This document shows, in pieces, positions 31,057-40,084 of a stretch of DNA of 64,000 nt. This DNA comes from Acidobacteriota bacterium. Lineage in GTDB: Bacteria > Acidobacteriota > Terriglobia > Versatilivoradales > Versatilivoraceae. The stretch covers positions 1-64,000 of the forward strand of contig JAPPDF010000101.1 in NCBI GenBank assembly GCA_028875575.1, written 5' to 3'. Under the pieces are notes generated by a model. That model saw only the letters and a program-made list of their open reading frames with translations. It had not been told where the DNA came from and searched no databases. Numbering within the stretch: the first letter of the stretch is position 1; the number at the start of each line of letters is the position of its first letter. The translations under genes and the position numbers were made by a program.

Positions 31057-32739
31057 TCAATACCCGGCCGCCTGGCCGTCCTTTCGCGACTCGGAAGCCC
31101 CTCGGTAGACCCGAGCTGCCGGGTCGACCCCGATGGCTTGATACCCCCCGAAGGGGCCCGCGTTCCGGGTGACCCGGTGACCCCGTCGCAGCAGCCCCTC
31201 CACCGATTCTTCGGAATAGCCCCTCTCCAGCTCCACCACGCCGCCATCGTCCATGCAGTCGCCGGTCGGCGAGGAAGATCCGTCGTGGTTGATGCGCGGG
31301 GCGTCCCCGGCCTCCTGCAGGTTCATGCCGAAGTCGATCAGGTTCAGGAGCACCTGAACCTGGCCCAGGGCCTGGAAGTCACCTCCCATCACGCCAAAGC
31401 TGAGGAAAGGTTCGCCGTTCCGGGTGACAAACCCGGGAATAATGGTGTGGAAGGGCCGTTTGTGGGGCGCGTAGCAGTTGAAGTGGCCCTCCTCCAGGCT
31501 GAACAGTTCGCCCCGGTTCTGCAGCATGAAGCCCAGTCCCTCGGGAGTCATTCCCGACCCCATGCCCTTGAAGTTGCTCTGAATGAAGGAGACCATGTTC
31601 CCGGCCGAGTCGGCCGTCGTCAGGTAAACGGTGTCTCCGGCAGCGAGGGCCGGGTTGCCCGCGTCGAAGCTCTTTCCCGCCTGCAGGGAGTCCAGCAGCT
31701 TGCAGCGCCGGCCTGCATAGGCCTTCGAAATCAACTGGCGGACCGGAATCCGGTTGAAGGCGGGATCGGCATAAAATCGGGCGCGATCTTCGAAAACCAG
31801 CTTCTTGGCCTCCACGAAATGGTGGATGTGATCGGTGGAGCCGAAGCCCATGGAGGCGATGTCGTAGGCCTCCAGCAGATTCAGCATCTGCAATACGGCA
31901 ATGCCCTGTCCATTGGGAGGGAGCTGCCAGACACGGTACCCCCGGTAATCGGTGGCCACCGGCTCCACCCATTCCGAACGATGGTCCGCCAGATCCCCGG
32001 CGCTCAGAAATCCCCCCAGTCTCTTGAAATAGGCTTCGATCCTCCGGGGGATTTCTCCCTGGTAGAAGGCTTCCCTGCCCGACCGGGCAATCGCTTCCAG
32101 CGTCACCGCCAGGTGGGGACTGGCGAACACCTCGCCCGCCCGGGGGGCCCGACCCTCCAGCGTAAAGGTCTCCAGGAAGCCGGGCCACTTCCCGTGGATC
32201 GCCACGCTTGCGTCCCAGTCCCTGGAAATAACCTCCGAGACCGGAAATCCCCGGCGAGCATATTCAATGGTCGGGGCCAGCAACTGATCCATGGGCAGCC
32301 TCCCGTAGCGCTCGTGGAGTGTGTACCACCCGTCCACGCATCCCGGCACGGACACCGAGAGCGGTCCCCGGGAAGGCAGCCGGCTCAGGCCTCGCCGTTT
32401 CAATTCCGCCAACTCCAGGGAATAGGGGGAGCGGCCACTGCCGTTGAGACCGGACAAGCTCCTGGCGCCGGCATCCCAGACCAGGGCAAAAAGGTCGCCC
32501 CCGATCCCGCACGAGACCGGCTCCACCAGGCCCAGCATCGCATTGGCCGCAATGGCGGCGTCCAGGGCGGTCCCCCCTTTCCTGAGAGTATCCACAGCCA
32601 CCTGGGTGGCCAGGGGCTGGCTGGTGGCGGCCATGCCGTCACGGGCCAGAACCTCGGAGCGGGTAGCCCATCTCCTGCCCGCCACCGCCACCTGCTGGCC
32701 TTCAAAAAGAGAAACGCCCATCCCGGATCCGGCATCCAT
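31057..32739 (-). CDS. gamma-glutamyltransferase-family Ntn hydrolase
   Basis: 560 residues. The single chain should self-cleave before the nucleophile Thr in GDTVYLTTADSAGNMVSF (about residue 363), giving large and small subunits. GIGGDLFALV, GGTALDAAIAANAMLG and the later NRGELFSLEEGHFN, PFHTIIPGFV and GVMGGDFQ are family blocks. Known members transfer or hydrolyse gamma-glutamyl groups or acylate side chains (cephalosporin acylase). No signal peptide is obvious, so it may be cytosolic. The ATG is 2 bp after the Mut7-C gene, so it belongs to the MoxR operon. Confidence 0.9.
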   Translation of the reverse strand: MDAGSGMGVSLFEGQQVAVAGRRWATRSEVLARDGMAATSQPLATQVAVDTLRKGGTALDAAIAANAMLGLVEPVSCGIGGDLFALVWDAGARSLSGLNGSGRSPYSLELAELKRRGLSRLPSRGPLSVSVPGCVDGWYTLHERYGRLPMDQLLAPTIEYARRGFPVSEVISRDWDASVAIHGKWPGFLETFTLEGRAPRAGEVFASPHLAVTLEAIARSGREAFYQGEIPRRIEAYFKRLGGFLSAGDLADHRSEWVEPVATDYRGYRVWQLPPNGQGIAVLQMLNLLEAYDIASMGFGSTDHIHHFVEAKKLVFEDRARFYADPAFNRIPVRQLISKAYAGRRCKLLDSLQAGKSFDAGNPALAAGDTVYLTTADSAGNMVSFIQSNFKGMGSGMTPEGLGFMLQNRGELFSLEEGHFNCYAPHKRPFHTIIPGFVTRNGEPFLSFGVMGGDFQALGQVQVLLNLIDFGMNLQEAGDAPRINHDGSSSPTGDCMDDGGVVELERGYSEESVEGLLRRGHRVTRNAGPFGGYQAIGVDPAARVYRGASESRKDGQAAGY

Positions 32740-32741
32740 AG

Positions 32742-33509
32742 TCACCTCGGCTCCTGGCTCGTTTGGGCCAGCACCTCTTCCAGAAAACCCTGCATCCGGT
32801 CGTGGTGCGACCCCTTCCAGTAGACGCGTTCGCACTCCGGGCACCACCGGAATTCCCGATAATGCTCCCGGGTTCGCGGCAGCAACCTGGAAGCCACCTC
32901 GTCGCTGGGGATTGACTCGATCGCCCCGTTGCAGCGCAGGCACCGTCCGAAGGGCTCCAGCCTGTCCCAAAGGCCGAATCGCCGCACCACTTCGATCAGC
33001 TGAAGCCGCGGACTCGTTGCCCGGATCCAATACCCGTAGGTAACCTGGCTCCGCTTCAGCAAACCCCGATCGCGAGTCAGCAGGATGCGGCGCTCGGCGT
33101 TGGACAGACGGGCCAGGCTCGCGTCCTCGAAGTCTCTCCGGTAGAGGCTGTCGAATCCCAACAGGCGCAGGAAGGAAGCCAGCTTCCCCAGGTGGACGTC
33201 CAGGACGAAACGGAGCTCCGGCAGCGGTCGAGGACGGACCCGAAGAATCGGTCCGACATCGATGGATTCGAACCGGGGGTAGAAGCTGATCCGGTCTCCG
33301 TCCCGGACGCGGTAGCTGAAGTCCACCGAATCTCCGTTGGCCAGAATCAGATCCAACTCGGTGTGGGGCACTCCCAGAGACTCCACCATATCCTTGACCG
33401 ATACCTGGCCGCTGAAGGAATGGTCAAAGCCCCCCGGACCGTCGCCATTGCTTGCGGCCGGTAGGCAATCCTGCAACTCGGCATAGAATCGCAGATGAGC
33501 GGTGGCCAT
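32742..33509 (-). CDS. Mut7-C RNase with ubiquitin-like N-terminus
   Basis: 255 residues. Residues 1-85 (TAHLRFYAELQDCL ... YRVRDGDRISFYPRF) form the Mut7-C ubiquitin-like (ThiS/MoaD-like beta-grasp) domain. The rest is the Mut7-C PIN-fold nuclease: RFVLDVHLGKLASFLRLLGFD, ILLTRDRGLLKR and a zinc ribbon, CLRCNG ... CPECERVYWKG. Acidic residues in DVHLG, RRDFED and TRDRG would hold the catalytic metal. The start codon overlaps the stop of the preceding gene (TAATG). The family is widespread; its substrates in bacteria are not established. It is the third gene of the MoxR operon. Confidence 0.88.
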   Translation of the reverse strand: MATAHLRFYAELQDCLPAASNGDGPGGFDHSFSGQVSVKDMVESLGVPHTELDLILANGDSVDFSYRVRDGDRISFYPRFESIDVGPILRVRPRPLPELRFVLDVHLGKLASFLRLLGFDSLYRRDFEDASLARLSNAERRILLTRDRGLLKRSQVTYGYWIRATSPRLQLIEVVRRFGLWDRLEPFGRCLRCNGAIESIPSDEVASRLLPRTREHYREFRWCPECERVYWKGSHHDRMQGFLEEVLAQTSQEPR

Positions 33510-35518
33510 TACCAGATATAGTCCTTGGCCAGCGGCCTCTTGTCGAACCCGTCCAGAACGTGAACGACCCGGATCTTTTTGACGCTGACCGGAGAGAGCT
33601 GTCCGATGGGCAGATAGACGATCTTGCGCCCCATCCTGGAGGCAACGGTGCGAAAGATGGATCGGGGCGGACGGGCCGCCACGTAGACCACGAATCTCTC
33701 CAGCGTGTAGTCCAGACCCGCCAGCAGCAGGGTCTCCGCCTTGCTTTCCGCCATCCCGTAGTCCGGGTCCTGCCAGACGTCCAGCATGCGGCGCGGAGGG
33801 TAGGAGAGCAGGAAGCCGCCATACTCGGCCCGGGAAATCCCCGGTCCCACGATCCGCTCGTAGGGGTTGGTGGAATAGAAGGCCATGTCCGATTCCTGCG
33901 CATGCTCCCCCAGCCAGGTTGTGCACCAGTGGTAGCGGTTCTCCAGGTCCTCGTCAAAGACGACCACCACGGCCCCCACCTCACCCGAGACCCGCTGGTA
34001 CTCCCGGACGTACAATTGCCCCTGGTGCCAGTTCCGCAGTGTCTCGCGGACGTCGATGCCGTCCAGCAGGGAGGTCTTGAAGACTTCCACCCTGGACCTT
34101 TCCGCCGAAAGAACGCTTTTCCCCTTTTTCTTGAGGAATGCCCCGTAGTCTTCCAGGACCAGGTCCTCGGGAGGGTAGGAACAGATGCCGCTGCCGTCGA
34201 ATTGGCGGGCCCATTCGCCCGGCGCCGATTCCTTTCTGCGGCCCCTCAGACCATAGGGGCGCACCCGGGTCTTGCGTCGGGGCAACCGGCGCCTGAGCTG
34301 GATTCGCCTCATGTTGGCGTAAAGCTCTTCTCCTGAAATCCTGACGGTCATGAGATCCGACTGGGTCCTTTGGTGAGGAGTGCCGCCGGCCAGTTCCCAA
34401 AGATCCCAGGCGTAGTTGTCGTCCACCACCGAACGGGCCGAAACCGTCAGGTCAAAGAGTCCGGCCACCAGTTGCCGGTCCAGGAAAGCCAGGTTTCGAG
34501 CGTAGCGCCCCAGCAAGCGTCGTTGCCAGTGAGAGACCTTTTCGCCGGTGGCTGCGCCGTATCGACTTTCCGATTCAGCCAGAAGCCGGAAAACCATGCG
34601 CTGGCGGTCGATGCTCCGGACGCCTGCCACAGGCGCATTATCCTCGGAAGCACCGGTGCGCCGGGCCGGCCTGGCCCTCCACCTCACCCTCCTGGCCGTT
34701 CGTTCCACGATGGACTCCAGGGACTGCAGCGGATCCTCCACCGGGGAGGTAATCACCCTGAAGGGTTGGTTGCCGTGCCCGGGCAGCGGGTCGGATGTGA
34801 CTGACTCAACCCTCCCGGCCTGCGAGGGCCGGCGGCAGCGCTCGTAGACTGCCTGGAAAAAGGGAGGCTCCAGCAGCACTTCGGCCAGGCACTCGGGGTG
34901 GAGGTTGAGCACCTGAATTCCGGTCCGTCTCTGGTGTGCCAGGGGCTCGGCCTGGGGCTTTTCGAGGGCCTTGAGCACCAGGGGAAATAGATTCAGGGAA
35001 AGCACTACCCAGACGGCTTGCCGTCCGGGGAGCGATTGCAGTCTCCAGGCCATGCCTTGAGCCTGCCGGCGAAGCTGGTGTCCGGCCGGCCGGGGGTAGG
35101 CGAGCCAGCTCTCCACAAACCTTGAATAACCGATTCGCCGAACCGCGTAGGAGTCGGGATAATTCTCCGGGGGATGGGCCGGCCGGTCCAGGTCGGGATC
35201 CACGAAGTGGGCAGCGGCATTCACCTCCCGGCCGCTGCGAAGCGCCTCCATGAAGGGGTCGGTAATTTCTACAGGGACGTAGACGGCATCCTGTCCGGAT
35301 TTGTCCGGGTAGAGGATCACCGAAAACTCCGGTAGCCGGCTCACGGCCCGGAGGGTCGCCGCCTTCAGCGTTTGGGGCAGCTCGACGGCGATCCGTCGGG
35401 GGCGATGGGCCAGGATGGCCCGCCGAACTTCAGCGGCGAACTCCATTCGCCCGGGCACCACCGGCAGAAAGCGAAAGCGCCCTCGCCTCCAGCCGTCCGC
35501 CTTTTCAGTGCCGCCCAT
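33509..35518 (-). CDS. unassigned 669-residue protein of a MoxR operon
   Basis: I do not recognise the family with certainty. The N-terminus (FLPVVPGRMEFAAEVRRAIL, then RPRRIAVELPQTL) resembles the Ere/ChaN/TraB type of fold seen in DUF5682 proteins that accompany MoxR ATPases. The middle (about 290-400) is helical with WQRRLLGRYARNLAFLDRQL. The last 200 residues are rich in likely conserved motifs: KTSLLDGIDVRETLRNWHQG, VVVVFDED, TTWLGEHAQESDMAFY, YGGFLLSYPPRRMLDVW and YVAARPPRS. No signal peptide or membrane span. It overlaps the ATPase end by 14 bp and the Mut7-C start by 1 bp, so it is a core part of the operon. Confidence 0.75.
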   Translation of the reverse strand: MGGTEKADGWRRGRFRFLPVVPGRMEFAAEVRRAILAHRPRRIAVELPQTLKAATLRAVSRLPEFSVILYPDKSGQDAVYVPVEITDPFMEALRSGREVNAAAHFVDPDLDRPAHPPENYPDSYAVRRIGYSRFVESWLAYPRPAGHQLRRQAQGMAWRLQSLPGRQAVWVVLSLNLFPLVLKALEKPQAEPLAHQRRTGIQVLNLHPECLAEVLLEPPFFQAVYERCRRPSQAGRVESVTSDPLPGHGNQPFRVITSPVEDPLQSLESIVERTARRVRWRARPARRTGASEDNAPVAGVRSIDRQRMVFRLLAESESRYGAATGEKVSHWQRRLLGRYARNLAFLDRQLVAGLFDLTVSARSVVDDNYAWDLWELAGGTPHQRTQSDLMTVRISGEELYANMRRIQLRRRLPRRKTRVRPYGLRGRRKESAPGEWARQFDGSGICSYPPEDLVLEDYGAFLKKKGKSVLSAERSRVEVFKTSLLDGIDVRETLRNWHQGQLYVREYQRVSGEVGAVVVVFDEDLENRYHWCTTWLGEHAQESDMAFYSTNPYERIVGPGISRAEYGGFLLSYPPRRMLDVWQDPDYGMAESKAETLLLAGLDYTLERFVVYVAARPPRSIFRTVASRMGRKIVYLPIGQLSPVSVKKIRVVHVLDGFDKRPLAKDYIW

Positions 35519-36353
35519 AACGGAGGGCCTCCTGGCCGAGGGTCTGCAGGATGGCAGTCTCCAGCGCGCGGGCGCGGCCCCGTCCCGGAGACATTTCGGC
35601 CAGCTTCATGGCGAATCTGGCGATGTTGATTCCATCCCGGACGGTGTAACGCTCGTCGGCCTCATGGGCTGCCTGCAGAAAATCGGTGACGTAGTCCAGG
35701 ACCTCCTGCTCGGCAAAAGGCAGATTTTCGCGAAGGATGTGCAGCTCTTCCTCCCGCTCCGGGAACTCGAGCAGGATTTGAGGCTGCAGCCGGGAATGAA
35801 TGTATTCCGGCAGCTCAAAGGTGGAAGCGTCGTCGTTCATGGTGGCGACCAGGCGAAAATTGGGATGGGCCTTGATCTTGATCCCGGCCACGATGGATTC
35901 CACGTATCGCCGGTTGTCGAGCAGCGGGGCCAGGCTGGCCCAACTCTTTTCGCTCATGCGATTGCCCTCGTCCAGGATCACCACTCCGCCCCTCACCATG
36001 GCGGTCACCAACGGCGAGGCCACGTAGCGAAGCTTTCCCTGCGACTCGATCACCGGGGTGACCAGCAAGTCTTCGGGACGGGTGTCCAGCGTCGCCTGCA
36101 GGATATAGACTTCCCTTCCCAGCCGCTTGCCCACGGCGTAGGCCAGGGTCGTCTTCCCCACGCCCGGCTTGCCCAGCAGCCGGGGGTTCATCGGCAGATC
36201 CTGGTTGTTGACAACCATCCAGGCGGCCATGAGCTGGCGAATGAGCTCCTCCTGGCCAACCCACTGAATGGGCAATTCATCCGGATGAGCCAGGTGAATG
36301 CGGACGCCGTCGATGTCGACGCTCTGAAGAGTTTGAGGCGATTGCGCGGTCAT
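35505..36353 (-). CDS. MoxR-family AAA+ ATPase
   Basis: 282 residues. Walker A GKPGVGKTT (about residue 60), Walker B GGVVILDEGNR with the MoxR-type Asn, sensor 1 LVATMNDD, and arginine finger region EYIHSRLQP. MoxR proteins remodel or load cofactors into partner proteins, often with a vWA protein, which is absent here. ATG at 36353, with a TTG 6 bp upstream as an alternative. It heads the operon with the 669-residue protein, the Mut7-C RNase and the GGT-like enzyme, from a promoter at 36427-36432. Confidence 0.92.
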   Translation of the reverse strand: MTAQSPQTLQSVDIDGVRIHLAHPDELPIQWVGQEELIRQLMAAWMVVNNQDLPMNPRLLGKPGVGKTTLAYAVGKRLGREVYILQATLDTRPEDLLVTPVIESQGKLRYVASPLVTAMVRGGVVILDEGNRMSEKSWASLAPLLDNRRYVESIVAGIKIKAHPNFRLVATMNDDASTFELPEYIHSRLQPQILLEFPEREEELHILRENLPFAEQEVLDYVTDFLQAAHEADERYTVRDGINIARFAMKLAEMSPGRGRARALETAILQTLGQEALRYGRH

Positions 36354-36410
36354 AGGCAATTAAAGAACGATCCACGAAGGGATGAGATTCGGCGACGGAG
36401 CAAAACTTGC

Positions 36411-36508: not shown

Positions 36509-37534
36509 ATGACCAGGGCCGCCAAAAACGGCCTGCAGGCATCCGACAAGTTTGCGCCCCCTTCTCTTCGCTCAACCCTTTTCCTGCCGGAAACACTTGA
36601 TTCCCAGCATCGACCGGCTCTCCCGGCCAACGCGATGATCGCACTTCGCCTGACATTCATCCTCTTCATCCTGCTCTGGACGCTTACTCAGGAACTGAAG
36701 GCCCAGAGCCTGACGGAGGTTGCCAGCAAGGAACGCGGTCGTCGGGCCCAACTGCCCCATGCGGCTGTCATCCATACCAACGAAACCCTGCAGGCTCACG
36801 CCAGCCGGCTTGCAGTTTCCTCCTCCACCAGGGCAGCGCCCGCTGTGTCCCCGCGCCGACCTTCCCGGCCCGCAGACCTATCCGGTACGACCCGGGAGGA
36901 GCGCGGCTGGAGCCGGCGCTTTCTCCAAGCCAAAGCCAGGCTGGCAACCGCCGAACAGCGTCACCAGGCGCTGCGGGCCAAGCTGGAGGGCCTGAACCTC
37001 AAGCTCCAGGGCGATCCGTTTCGCCAGACCACGGTAACCGACCCCGCTCGCGTCTATGGTCCACTGATCGCCCAGGCGGAGCAGCGGATTGAACAACGCC
37101 GGCAGGTCCTCTCCAGGGCCCGGCGAGAACTTGCCGACCTTCGCGAGCGCCTGCGCAAGAGCGGAAAGCCCCTGTCCTGGGAGCACTCTCGGGCCGCCCT
37201 GGACCACCGGATCGGCGAGGGAACCGCCGATGGGACGGAGGGCCCCGTGCTCAGGGATCGAGCCTACTGGCAACGGCAACTGAGCCTCGTCGACCAGCGC
37301 TTCCGCTCACGAATTGCCCCGCTGGAACTCGAGCGGTTTCAGCTGGTGCATCGGCGCATTCCGCAGAAAGGGGAGGCTCTGGAGGTTGACAGCACCCCGG
37401 GGCTGGGCCTGCCCCCGGGAGTCGCGGACATCAACCGTAGAATCCGGCAACTGAGAAGCCGGAAAACCGAGGAGAAACGAGCCTTGGTGGGACACGCCCT
37501 GCGGTCAGGGGCCTTGCCGGGGTGGTTTCGCTGA
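36509..37534 (+). CDS. secreted or anchored coiled-coil hypothetical protein
   Basis: 341 residues from the ATG with AGGAG 7 nt upstream, or 299 from an internal ATG at 36635. A hydrophobic segment (LRLTFILFILLWTLTQ) precedes a Pro/Ser-rich linker. A long charged helical region follows (RRFLQAKARLATAEQRHQALRAKLEGL ... QRIEQRRQVLSRARRELADLRERLRK), a likely coiled coil. I cannot assign a function. It is divergent from the MoxR operon and 39 bp upstream of the PBP gene, so it may share expression with the latter and act in the envelope. Confidence 0.7.
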   Translation: MTRAAKNGLQASDKFAPPSLRSTLFLPETLDSQHRPALPANAMIALRLTFILFILLWTLTQELKAQSLTEVASKERGRRAQLPHAAVIHTNETLQAHASRLAVSSSTRAAPAVSPRRPSRPADLSGTTREERGWSRRFLQAKARLATAEQRHQALRAKLEGLNLKLQGDPFRQTTVTDPARVYGPLIAQAEQRIEQRRQVLSRARRELADLRERLRKSGKPLSWEHSRAALDHRIGEGTADGTEGPVLRDRAYWQRQLSLVDQRFRSRIAPLELERFQLVHRRIPQKGEALEVDSTPGLGLPPGVADINRRIRQLRSRKTEEKRALVGHALRSGALPGWFR

Positions 37535-37573
37535 TCGCTGCCCCCCGGCCGCTTGTATAGGAAACCGATAGAC

Positions 37574-40084
37574 ATGTTCCGCTCCAGGAAGAAGAAATCC
37601 GCGAGAAAGAAGACCCGGGTAAAGGCCAGGTGGTGGTACTGGCCCTGGTTTCATTCGACCTGGTCCAAGGTGTTGCTGACCCTGGGGATTTTCGCTTTCG
37701 TCGCGGTCAGCTTTGTCCTCATCGACACCTACCAGCAGTTCTCCCGGCAAATTGACCGCAAGATTTCCGGGGAGATTTTTCTCAATACGGCCAAGGTCTA
37801 TACCGCTCCACTGGAGATCTATCCCGGCCAACCCATAGGCCTGGCCCAGATCGAGGGCTACCTGGAGGCTGCAGGGTACAGCCCGAACCAACCCGAGGAG
37901 GGTGCCCAGGGGCACTTCGCTGCAAGCGGAGACGGACTGCAAATCTATCCGGGAGAACATGCCTACGGAGGGAGCGCCGGGGCGGTCCGGATCGAGTTCG
38001 ACCAAGACGGCATCGAAAATATTGTCTCCCTGTCCGACCGGAGCCTGCTCGAATTCTACGATCTGGAACCCCGGCTGATCACCCACCTGTTCGACAAGAG
38101 TCGTGAAAAGCGCCGCCTGATCGAGTACTGGGAAATCCCTCAGGTGCTCAGGGACGCCGTGCTGGCGATCGAGGACCGCCGGTTCTTCTCACATTACGGT
38201 TTCGATCCCATCGCCCTGGTCAGCGTGGCTCTGGGGGGATTTGAACGGGGAGCCAGCACCATCACCCAGCAACTGGTGCGATCTTCCAGCTTCTGGTTGA
38301 CACGGGAGAGACGGGTGATCCGCAAGGCCAAAGAGATTTACATGTCCACCATCCTGGAGACACGGCTGTCCAAGGAGGAAATCTTCACCCTCTACTCCAA
38401 CGACATCTACCTGGGACAGAGCGGTTCTTTCAGTATCAACGGATTCGGTGAAGCCGCCACCGCCTACTTCAACAAGGACATCAAGGACCTCGACCTGCCG
38501 GAAGCCGCCCTGCTGGCGGGACTGATTCAGTCTCCGAACCGCTACAGCCCCACCAGGCGTCCGGAAAGAGCCATGCGTCGCCGAAACGTGGTGTTGATGG
38601 CAATGCTGGAAACCGGCAGCATCACGCCGGAACAGTATCAGGCAGCCATCAAGGCGCCCTTGGAGGTCGCTCCCCACAGCGTGGATCAGAACGACGCCCC
38701 CTACTTTGTGGACATGCTCAAGGACCGCTTGCTGCAGACCTACTCCGACGATGAACTGCTCACCAAGCGCTTCAAGGTCTACACCACCCTGGACGCCGAC
38801 CTGCAATCCATTGCCTACAAGGTCGTGCGGGACGGCGCCGAGCTGGCGGATCAGACCCGGGCCCATCGGCAACGGCGTGGTCCCAGGGCCAGATGGGATC
38901 CGGCCTCCCACCCAAAGTATGAAATCCCTCCCGATGAGCGGGTGCAGGTCTGCCTGATTGCCCTGGATGCCGTCACCGGAGAGATTCGAGCCCTGGTGGG
39001 CGGCCGGGATTACGGGACCAGCCAGTTGAATCGGGTGACCTACGCCAAGCGACAACCCGGCTCCATCTTCAAGCCCTTCGTCTTCGCTGCCGCCATCAAC
39101 TCGGCCATCAAACACACCGAACCCCTGGTCACGCCCTCGACCATGGTGGAAGACATCAAGACGGTCTTCAATTTCAACGAGGAACCCTACGAGCCCAACA
39201 ATTACGGGGAAAAATTCTTCGGGCCGGTGACCCTGCGACGGGCGCTCACCAAGTCACTCAACGTGGCCACCATAAAATTCGCCGAAATGATCGGTTGGCA
39301 GAAGGTGGTCGATCTGGCGATATCCGCCGGCATGAACGACCGCATTCTGGCCACTCCGGCAGCCGCCCTGGGTTCCTACGAGGTCACTCCCCTGGAGATG
39401 GCGGAGGCCTTCACCATCTTCGCCAATCAGGGTATTCGGGTGGAGCCTCGGATCATTCGCGACGTGGTCAATGGTGACGGCGAAACCATCTTCAGCTCGG
39501 AGATCTCGTCCGAAGAGGTTATCGACCCGAGCGTGGCCTACCTGATGACCAACCTGATGGAAGGGGTGATCAATCGGGGCACCGGCATTCGGGCTCGGCT
39601 GATGGGTTTTCGGAAGCCGGCGGCGGGCAAGACCGGGACCTCCCATGACGGCTGGTTCGCCGGCTACACCAGCGGGCTGCTCTGCATTGTCTGGGTAGGG
39701 TTTGACGACAATCGGGAACTGATGCTGGAGGGGTCCACTTCGGCCCTGCCCATCTGGACGGACTTCATGAAGCAGGCCACCGAACTTGAACCCTGGCTGG
39801 CCGAGGATGAATTCCAGCCCCCGGAGGAAGGCATGGTTCGGGTCCACATCGACGAAGAGACCGGCCTACTGGCCACGCCCGATTGTCAGAGCGTCATTTA
39901 CGAGCACTACATTGCCGGCAGCGAGCCGACCCAGCGCTGCAGCCATTCCGCTCACGAGTGGCTTTACGACCAGCGCCAACTGAGCAACGAGGCCGGAGCC
40001 ACCCAGGACGAAGAGGAACAGCCTGCACAGCCCCCCTCCAAGAAGACCAACCGCTTCAAGCGAATTTTCTCAAAGATTTTCTAA
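37574..40084 (+). CDS. class A penicillin-binding protein (PBP1b-like)
   Basis: 836 residues. A short basic cytoplasmic tail is followed by a membrane anchor (VLLTLGIFAFVAVSFVLI) and a UB2H-like region. The glycosyltransferase 51 domain has EDRRFFSHYGFDP and GASTITQQLVR. The transpeptidase domain has SxxK in PGSIFKPF, SxN as KSLN and KTG as GKTGTSHDGW. It polymerises and cross-links peptidoglycan outside the inner membrane. The first ATG (37574) is chosen; a TTG 21 bp earlier is in frame. Its stop overlaps the stop of the convergent LhgO gene in CTAA. Confidence 0.95.
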   Translation: MFRSRKKKSARKKTRVKARWWYWPWFHSTWSKVLLTLGIFAFVAVSFVLIDTYQQFSRQIDRKISGEIFLNTAKVYTAPLEIYPGQPIGLAQIEGYLEAAGYSPNQPEEGAQGHFAASGDGLQIYPGEHAYGGSAGAVRIEFDQDGIENIVSLSDRSLLEFYDLEPRLITHLFDKSREKRRLIEYWEIPQVLRDAVLAIEDRRFFSHYGFDPIALVSVALGGFERGASTITQQLVRSSSFWLTRERRVIRKAKEIYMSTILETRLSKEEIFTLYSNDIYLGQSGSFSINGFGEAATAYFNKDIKDLDLPEAALLAGLIQSPNRYSPTRRPERAMRRRNVVLMAMLETGSITPEQYQAAIKAPLEVAPHSVDQNDAPYFVDMLKDRLLQTYSDDELLTKRFKVYTTLDADLQSIAYKVVRDGAELADQTRAHRQRRGPRARWDPASHPKYEIPPDERVQVCLIALDAVTGEIRALVGGRDYGTSQLNRVTYAKRQPGSIFKPFVFAAAINSAIKHTEPLVTPSTMVEDIKTVFNFNEEPYEPNNYGEKFFGPVTLRRALTKSLNVATIKFAEMIGWQKVVDLAISAGMNDRILATPAAALGSYEVTPLEMAEAFTIFANQGIRVEPRIIRDVVNGDGETIFSSEISSEEVIDPSVAYLMTNLMEGVINRGTGIRARLMGFRKPAAGKTGTSHDGWFAGYTSGLLCIVWVGFDDNRELMLEGSTSALPIWTDFMKQATELEPWLAEDEFQPPEEGMVRVHIDEETGLLATPDCQSVIYEHYIAGSEPTQRCSHSAHEWLYDQRQLSNEAGATQDEEEQPAQPPSKKTNRFKRIFSKIF

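Follow-up and report, generated by a model that had tools for sequence, protein, structure and literature searches.

The window, that is, the whole stretch of DNA analysed here, comprises 64,000 nucleotides of contig JAPPDF010000101.1 (assembly GCA_028875575.1, Acidobacteriota bacterium), whose closest kin are Acidobacteriota associated with sponges (Candidatus Versatilivorator and related taxa). It contains, all on the minus strand, four closely packed genes for a MoxR-type AAA+ ATPase, a 669-residue protein (P669), a Mut7-C RNase, and a gamma-glutamyltranspeptidase-like (GGT) enzyme (Table 1). The initial annotation, which saw these four genes as one module, gave their spacing correctly: MoxR and P669 overlap by 14 bp (P669 ATG at 35518, MoxR end at 35505), P669 and Mut7-C share one base in the sequence TAATG (P669 stop at 33511-33509, Mut7-C ATG at 33509), and 2 bp separate Mut7-C from GGT (Mut7-C stop at 32744-32742, GGT ATG at 32739). 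The mechanical open reading frame (ORF) starts at 33926 (Mut7-C) and 33030 (GGT) are spurious, each falling within the gene upstream. Comparison with relatives revealed purifying selection on the genes, with a dN/dS of 0.13-0.20 for P669, and showed that the MoxR/P669 overlap is kept, unlike the linkage to Mut7-C and GGT. MoxR and P669 form a genuine, conserved, and undescribed two-gene MoxR system.

Table 1. Genes of the locus and domains of P669 (window coordinates)
Feature	Length or residues	Coordinates	Strand	Basis or remark
MoxR-type AAA+ ATPase	284 aa	35505..36359	-	Start TTG 36359 or ATG 36353; Pfam AAA_5, AAA_3
P669, MoxR partner protein	669 aa	33509..35518	-	Co-occurrence with MoxR; YehM/DUF5682 profile match
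Predicted TraB/ChaN (TIKI/Ere)-like domain of P669	residues ~11-190	34949..35488	-	AF2 pLDDT mostly >80; VIA-align
Variable insert of P669	residues ~231-299	34622..34828	-	Short or absent in most relatives (alignment A1); pLDDT <50
Predicted helical domain of P669, like magnesium-chelatase ATPase C-domain (AAA+ lid)	residues ~305-380	34379..34606	-	Two separate models
Highly conserved alpha/beta domain of P669 (predicted)	residues ~445-669	33512..34186	-	Motifs CSYPPE, DGxDxRETxRxW, TWLGExxxESDMA, GPGxxRxEYGG
Mut7-C RNase with Ub-Mut7C domain	255 aa	32742..33509	-	PF01927 5.7e-46, PF14451 2.4e-26; downstream neighbour
Gamma-glutamyltranspeptidase-like (GGT) gene	560 aa	31057..32739	-	PF01019 2e-145; downstream neighbour

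The pairing of MoxR with P669 was followed in 200 related genomes, in 297 genomes sampled across the Acidobacteriota, on a Neochlamydia plasmid, and in viral collections. P669 was found, as one match per genome, in 48 of the 200 related genomes and in 16 of the 297 from across the phylum, and the MoxR orthologue (E up to 1e-60) occurs in the identical set of 48. At 52 of the 56 loci that have enough upstream sequence or a located MoxR partner, MoxR lies directly upstream of P669, on the same strand and within about 160 bp, mostly with an overlap of 4-32 bp, which bears out the earlier proposal that the 669-residue protein is the partner of MoxR. The pair is unlinked in three genomes (G037, G257, and G437), where MoxR is on a separate contig with 64-74% identity; in G467, P669 is at a contig edge and MoxR is again on a separate contig (identity over the four genomes together, 59-74%). 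At one further locus (L102), MoxR is about 2 kb upstream of P669. Genome G395 has two complete pairs (G395:C40:2347-5150 and G395:C68:8315-11156; loci L097 and L101), each with its own MoxR, and the plasmid of Neochlamydia sp. S13 carries the pair in the same gene order. MoxR and P669 are a real, tightly coupled, co-inherited pair, passed on together in soil and sponge bacteria. Two IMG/VR contigs (L109 and L110) also carry P669, and one of them carries MoxR as well; perhaps these contigs are host DNA wrongly classed with the viruses.

The other two genes of the window behave differently. The RNase does have the ubiquitin-like N-terminus ascribed to it (Pfam Ub-Mut7C, Table 1), and its domain make-up is that of the Ub-Mut7-C RNases Rv0579 and TM_0779 (PMC7052010, PMC1779556); however, only inside the window's family are such genes linked to MoxR or P669. 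The initial annotation read MoxR, P669, and Mut7-C, with GGT as a possible accessory, as an NTP-dependent, regulated nuclease module that might serve in stress or conflict, and its tight overlaps do recur in four to six further genomes of the family. Of the 48 P669-bearing genomes, 18 also have Mut7-C, a mild excess (Fisher p 0.0004, phylogeny not corrected for). Yet in the window's own genus, one locus (L033) lacks Mut7-C, and in one sister species (L035 and L037) residues 27-202 of Mut7-C are deleted. Beside L038, too, there is no Mut7-C, and MoxR and P669 are intact in every one of these cases. Outside the family, Mut7-C never adjoins the pair and, in P669-bearing genomes, is far off or on a different contig; it is present in 37 of the 200 relatives, 19 of them without P669, and a published survey found no conserved genome context for Ub-Mut7-C genes (PMC1779556). 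A nuclease module is thus without support and very improbable. The first reading had named, as grounds against itself, the occurrence of P669 mostly without MoxR or Mut7-C; this is what was found for Mut7-C, and strongly the reverse was found for MoxR. As for GGT, among the loci examined, it stands beside the pair only in the window's genus. In L035/L037, the space before GGT is filled by repeat-like non-coding sequence (L037 10955-11154).

No third gene recurs downstream of the pair: The genes there vary by genus and elsewhere include NHL/teneurin-like repeats, a PQQ dehydrogenase, DUF4197, a phosphodiesterase, and an oxidoreductase. The loss of Mut7-C, the confinement of GGT to one genus, and this downstream diversity together mean that the conserved unit consists of MoxR and P669 and that the other two genes, incidental local neighbours in the window's family, lie outside the system. 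Since both drop out once relatives are compared, gene overlap in a single genome is poor evidence of a functional module.

The same neighbourhoods bear on whether MoxR/P669 might serve in phage defence or conflict as a relative of the MoxR-vWA ternary systems (VMAP, iSTAND, FtsH, and beta-propeller types; PMC7159879). That source describes MoxR systems of such a kind, in which MoxR is accompanied by a large extra protein, as it is here; in addition, the pair lies on a plasmid in Neochlamydia and on two contigs listed as viral. However, MoxR/P669 has neither the vWA nor the effector-associated domains of the ternary systems, and the available part of the text mentions none of TraB, TIKI, and DUF5682. 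PADLOC gave no match to P669 and only weak generic ATPase matches to MoxR; the neighbours of the pair are varied and ordinary, with no recurrent gene for a vWA protein or an effector and no recurrent hypervariable gene; and inheritance is lineage-wide and single-copy, with strong conservation. The conflict role once suggested for the locus can hardly be upheld.

The window MoxR matches Pfam AAA_5 (2.5e-20) and AAA_3 (9e-10), both above the cut-off, and Walker A (GKPGVGKT), Walker B (VVILDE), and sensor-1 (ATMN) motifs can be read in its sequence. Its closest relatives of solved structure are midasin, NorQ, and CbbQ, NorQ and CbbQ being the nearest bacterial ones. By comparison, its identity to YehL of E. 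coli is 21% (E 0.014), which places the two in different subfamilies. MoxR AAA+ ATPases usually, if not universally, have a co-encoded vWA partner, and most have been studied via such partners. Among the neighbour genes examined, none that adjoins the MoxR/P669 pair encodes a vWA protein, as had been noted for the window, and none of the 48 P669-bearing genomes has a strong CoxE-type vWA gene.

P669 itself had been called unassigned, with a TraB/Ere-like opening and a highly patterned C-terminus. The first of these descriptions holds insofar as P669 has no direct family match in Pfam, NCBIfam, PADLOC, PHROGs, or a phmmer search against PDB sequences. It does not hold for residues 13-365: When a broad alignment of 24 P669 proteins was compared by hhalign with YehM and five DUF5682 proteins, this region matched at 98% (E 2.8e-13) over 282 columns, up from 85% over 98 columns against DUF5682 with an earlier, narrower alignment. 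In hmmscan, six of the 24 proteins, all divergent relatives, matched PF18934 (best 3.2e-6); the window P669 gave no match to it at the gathering score.

The TraB/Ere-like opening was recovered by structure as well as by these distant profile matches. A whole-length AlphaFold2 (AF2) model that drew on 37 relatives is of good quality over residues 7-230 and of low confidence after residue 420, where it was replaced by a separate model of the C-terminal part; predicted local distance difference test (pLDDT) values for the domains are in Table 1. VIA-align of residues 1-190 found ChaN (2g5g, Z 8.0 over 141 residues), HopBA1 (5t09, Z 7.5), a Tetrahymena complex IV subunit (8b6h_DQ, Z 10.2), and further members of the TraB/ChaN superfamily, and the profile of alignment A1 matches a genuine TraB-like protein (E 1.1e-4). 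The modelled N-terminal domain thus has the TraB/ChaN/TIKI/Ere fold. The glutamate of its VAVELP motif is kept in all but one P669 in the motif alignment. At the site of the TraB histidine (GxxH; GTAH in TraB, RHH in YehM), the window has PVVP (residues 19-22; 35454-35464), and its class has PVVP or PVAP; in Neochlamydia and in other classes of Acidobacteriota, P669 retains a histidine there (PVLH), as in the superfamily. Replacement of this histidine in the alignment suggests that the domain has probably lost its original TraB-like activity in the window's lineage while keeping the fold. P669 also departs from the superfamily in that the domain is fused to a lid-like and a new C-terminal domain. 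In the models, the lid-like part, residues 305-380, resembles an AAA+ lid helical bundle placed on a separate chain, with matches to 6l8d_E (Z 7.2, 71 residues, 2.3 A) and 1g8p (Z 5.9, 68 residues).

This front half invites comparison with the E. coli gene order yehL (MoxR), yehM (DUF5682), yehP (VWA), and yehQ (SWIM). In both systems, a MoxR gene is followed directly by a gene for a large protein, and the front halves, TraB-like plus helical domain, are homologous by profile (residues 13-365 of P669); the front half of P669 is thus a distant relative of YehM. Unlike the YehLMPQ genes, however, the P669 pair has no VWA or SWIM gene beside it (no relative of YehP or YehQ was found near the pair) and its MoxR is of another subfamily, while P669 lacks the RHH motif of YehM and has a C-terminal part with no DUF5682 counterpart (probability of 1.6% against the DUF5682 C-terminal half). 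At the five DUF5682 loci compared, YehL is present, and YehP accompanies it in two. By these tests (the missing PF18934 match of the window protein, its unmatched C-terminal half, the different MoxR subfamily, and the absence of VWA and SWIM genes), P669 is not a DUF5682 member. The two types of system coexist in genome G257, which holds P669 with its unlinked MoxR as well as two YehLM-type DUF5682 loci (L100, L116, and L118).

The patterned C-terminus is indeed both unusually patterned and conserved: Residues 445-669 hold most of the columns that are invariant across the phylum, with C446, S447, E451, D489, R491, E492, R495, W535, E538, E542, D544, D584, E595, R650, and H653 among them. Judged by sequence, the C-terminal 220-300 residues are the new and most conserved part of P669, a deeply conserved domain with no Pfam or NCBIfam family. 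An AF2 model of this part from 59 sequences (pLDDT 84) predicts the order beta-beta-beta-alpha-beta-alpha-beta, that is, three to four strands and then helix-strand-helix-strand. Foldseek against PDB and viral structures returned nothing with E <0.001, and VIA gave no Z >=8, the best values after residue 445 being 3.7 (creatinase N-domain) and 3.3 (RuvX), both below noise. Together with the strand order, these matches suggest, as a lead, an RNase H-like layout. A vWA domain was also considered but gained no support: The first predicted strand has FDED in place of the DxSxS of a metal-ion-dependent adhesion site (MIDAS), no helix is predicted after it, an order unsuited to vWA, and Pfam searches of the 59 C-terminal parts gave scattered chance matches and no vWA, the fold searches having no confident match either way.

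One explanation of this domain is that P669 is an enzyme with its active site there, possibly RNase H-like, and that MoxR is a dedicated chaperone that matures or activates it, as NorQ and CbbQ do with their own targets. The dense invariant charged residues (D489, R491, E492, R495, E538, E542, D544, D584, E595, and H653), the strand order with its weak creatinase and RuvX matches, and the position of the window MoxR on the NorQ/CbbQ side are consistent with this. However, those fold matches all fall below the noise level of the tool, no catalytic residues are assigned, and the TraB-like domain lacks its histidine in this lineage; we regard this explanation as unlikely, if deserving of attention.

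The reading preferred here, to which we give a probability of roughly 0.6, is that MoxR and P669 are a putative dedicated two-protein AAA+ remodelling system that works without vWA or SWIM partners. By analogy with other MoxR systems (PMC9976466, PMC7159879), a presumed MoxR ring would hydrolyse ATP and thereby remodel a client that P669 binds. P669 would serve as the MoxR adaptor, its helical and TraB-like front half docking in the way that YehM may dock to YehL, and its C-terminal domain would be presented as the client-binding or client-acting part. Like NorQ/NorD, CbbQ/CbbO, and RavA/ViaA (PMC9976466), the system consists of a MoxR ATPase and a dedicated co-encoded partner; unlike in them, neither a vWA domain nor a MIDAS motif can be recognised in the partner, and P669 would fill the place taken by the vWA protein in other MoxR systems. 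Several points weigh against this remodelling system. Generic vWA genes occur widely among these genomes, and an unlinked vWA protein might be a partner; the Z of the lid-like match is middling; in genome G466, whose assembly is fragmented, P669 was detected but MoxR was not; and the 48 genomes are related, so that their co-occurrences are not 48 independent events. Because of this relatedness, the stronger facts are the retention of both genes when unlinked, their duplication as a pair, and their presence in a second phylum.

A more tentative proposal goes further: There may be a class of MoxR that needs no vWA, in which a YehM-derived adaptor has gained a new and strongly constrained client-binding or catalytic C-terminal domain to give a self-contained two-gene machine, Acidobacteriota-wide and also found in Chlamydiota. 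We know of no function for YehLMPQ, and the compact, single-copy MoxR/P669 pair is a simpler object for testing a YehM-type front half.

Some minor observations concern the surroundings of the pair. Close to it, a gene for a TtcA-like PP-loop ATPase is found downstream in one acidobacterial genus (L047:6946-7749, L070:9106-9897, and L075:4546-5343) and upstream in Neochlamydia (L111:5127-5873), which could hint at a link with tRNA thiolation or be due to chance. In family f17 (L105, L107, and L112), P669 sits in much longer open frames of 773-1199 codons; they are measured from stop to stop in DNA rich in GC, and the extra length may not be genuine. Finally, the window has, at 36509-40084, an ORF of 341 aa and a PBP1-type gene, which are divergent from the MoxR/P669/Mut7-C/GGT operon; this PBP gene is kept beside the operon in every genome of the genus with enough sequence.

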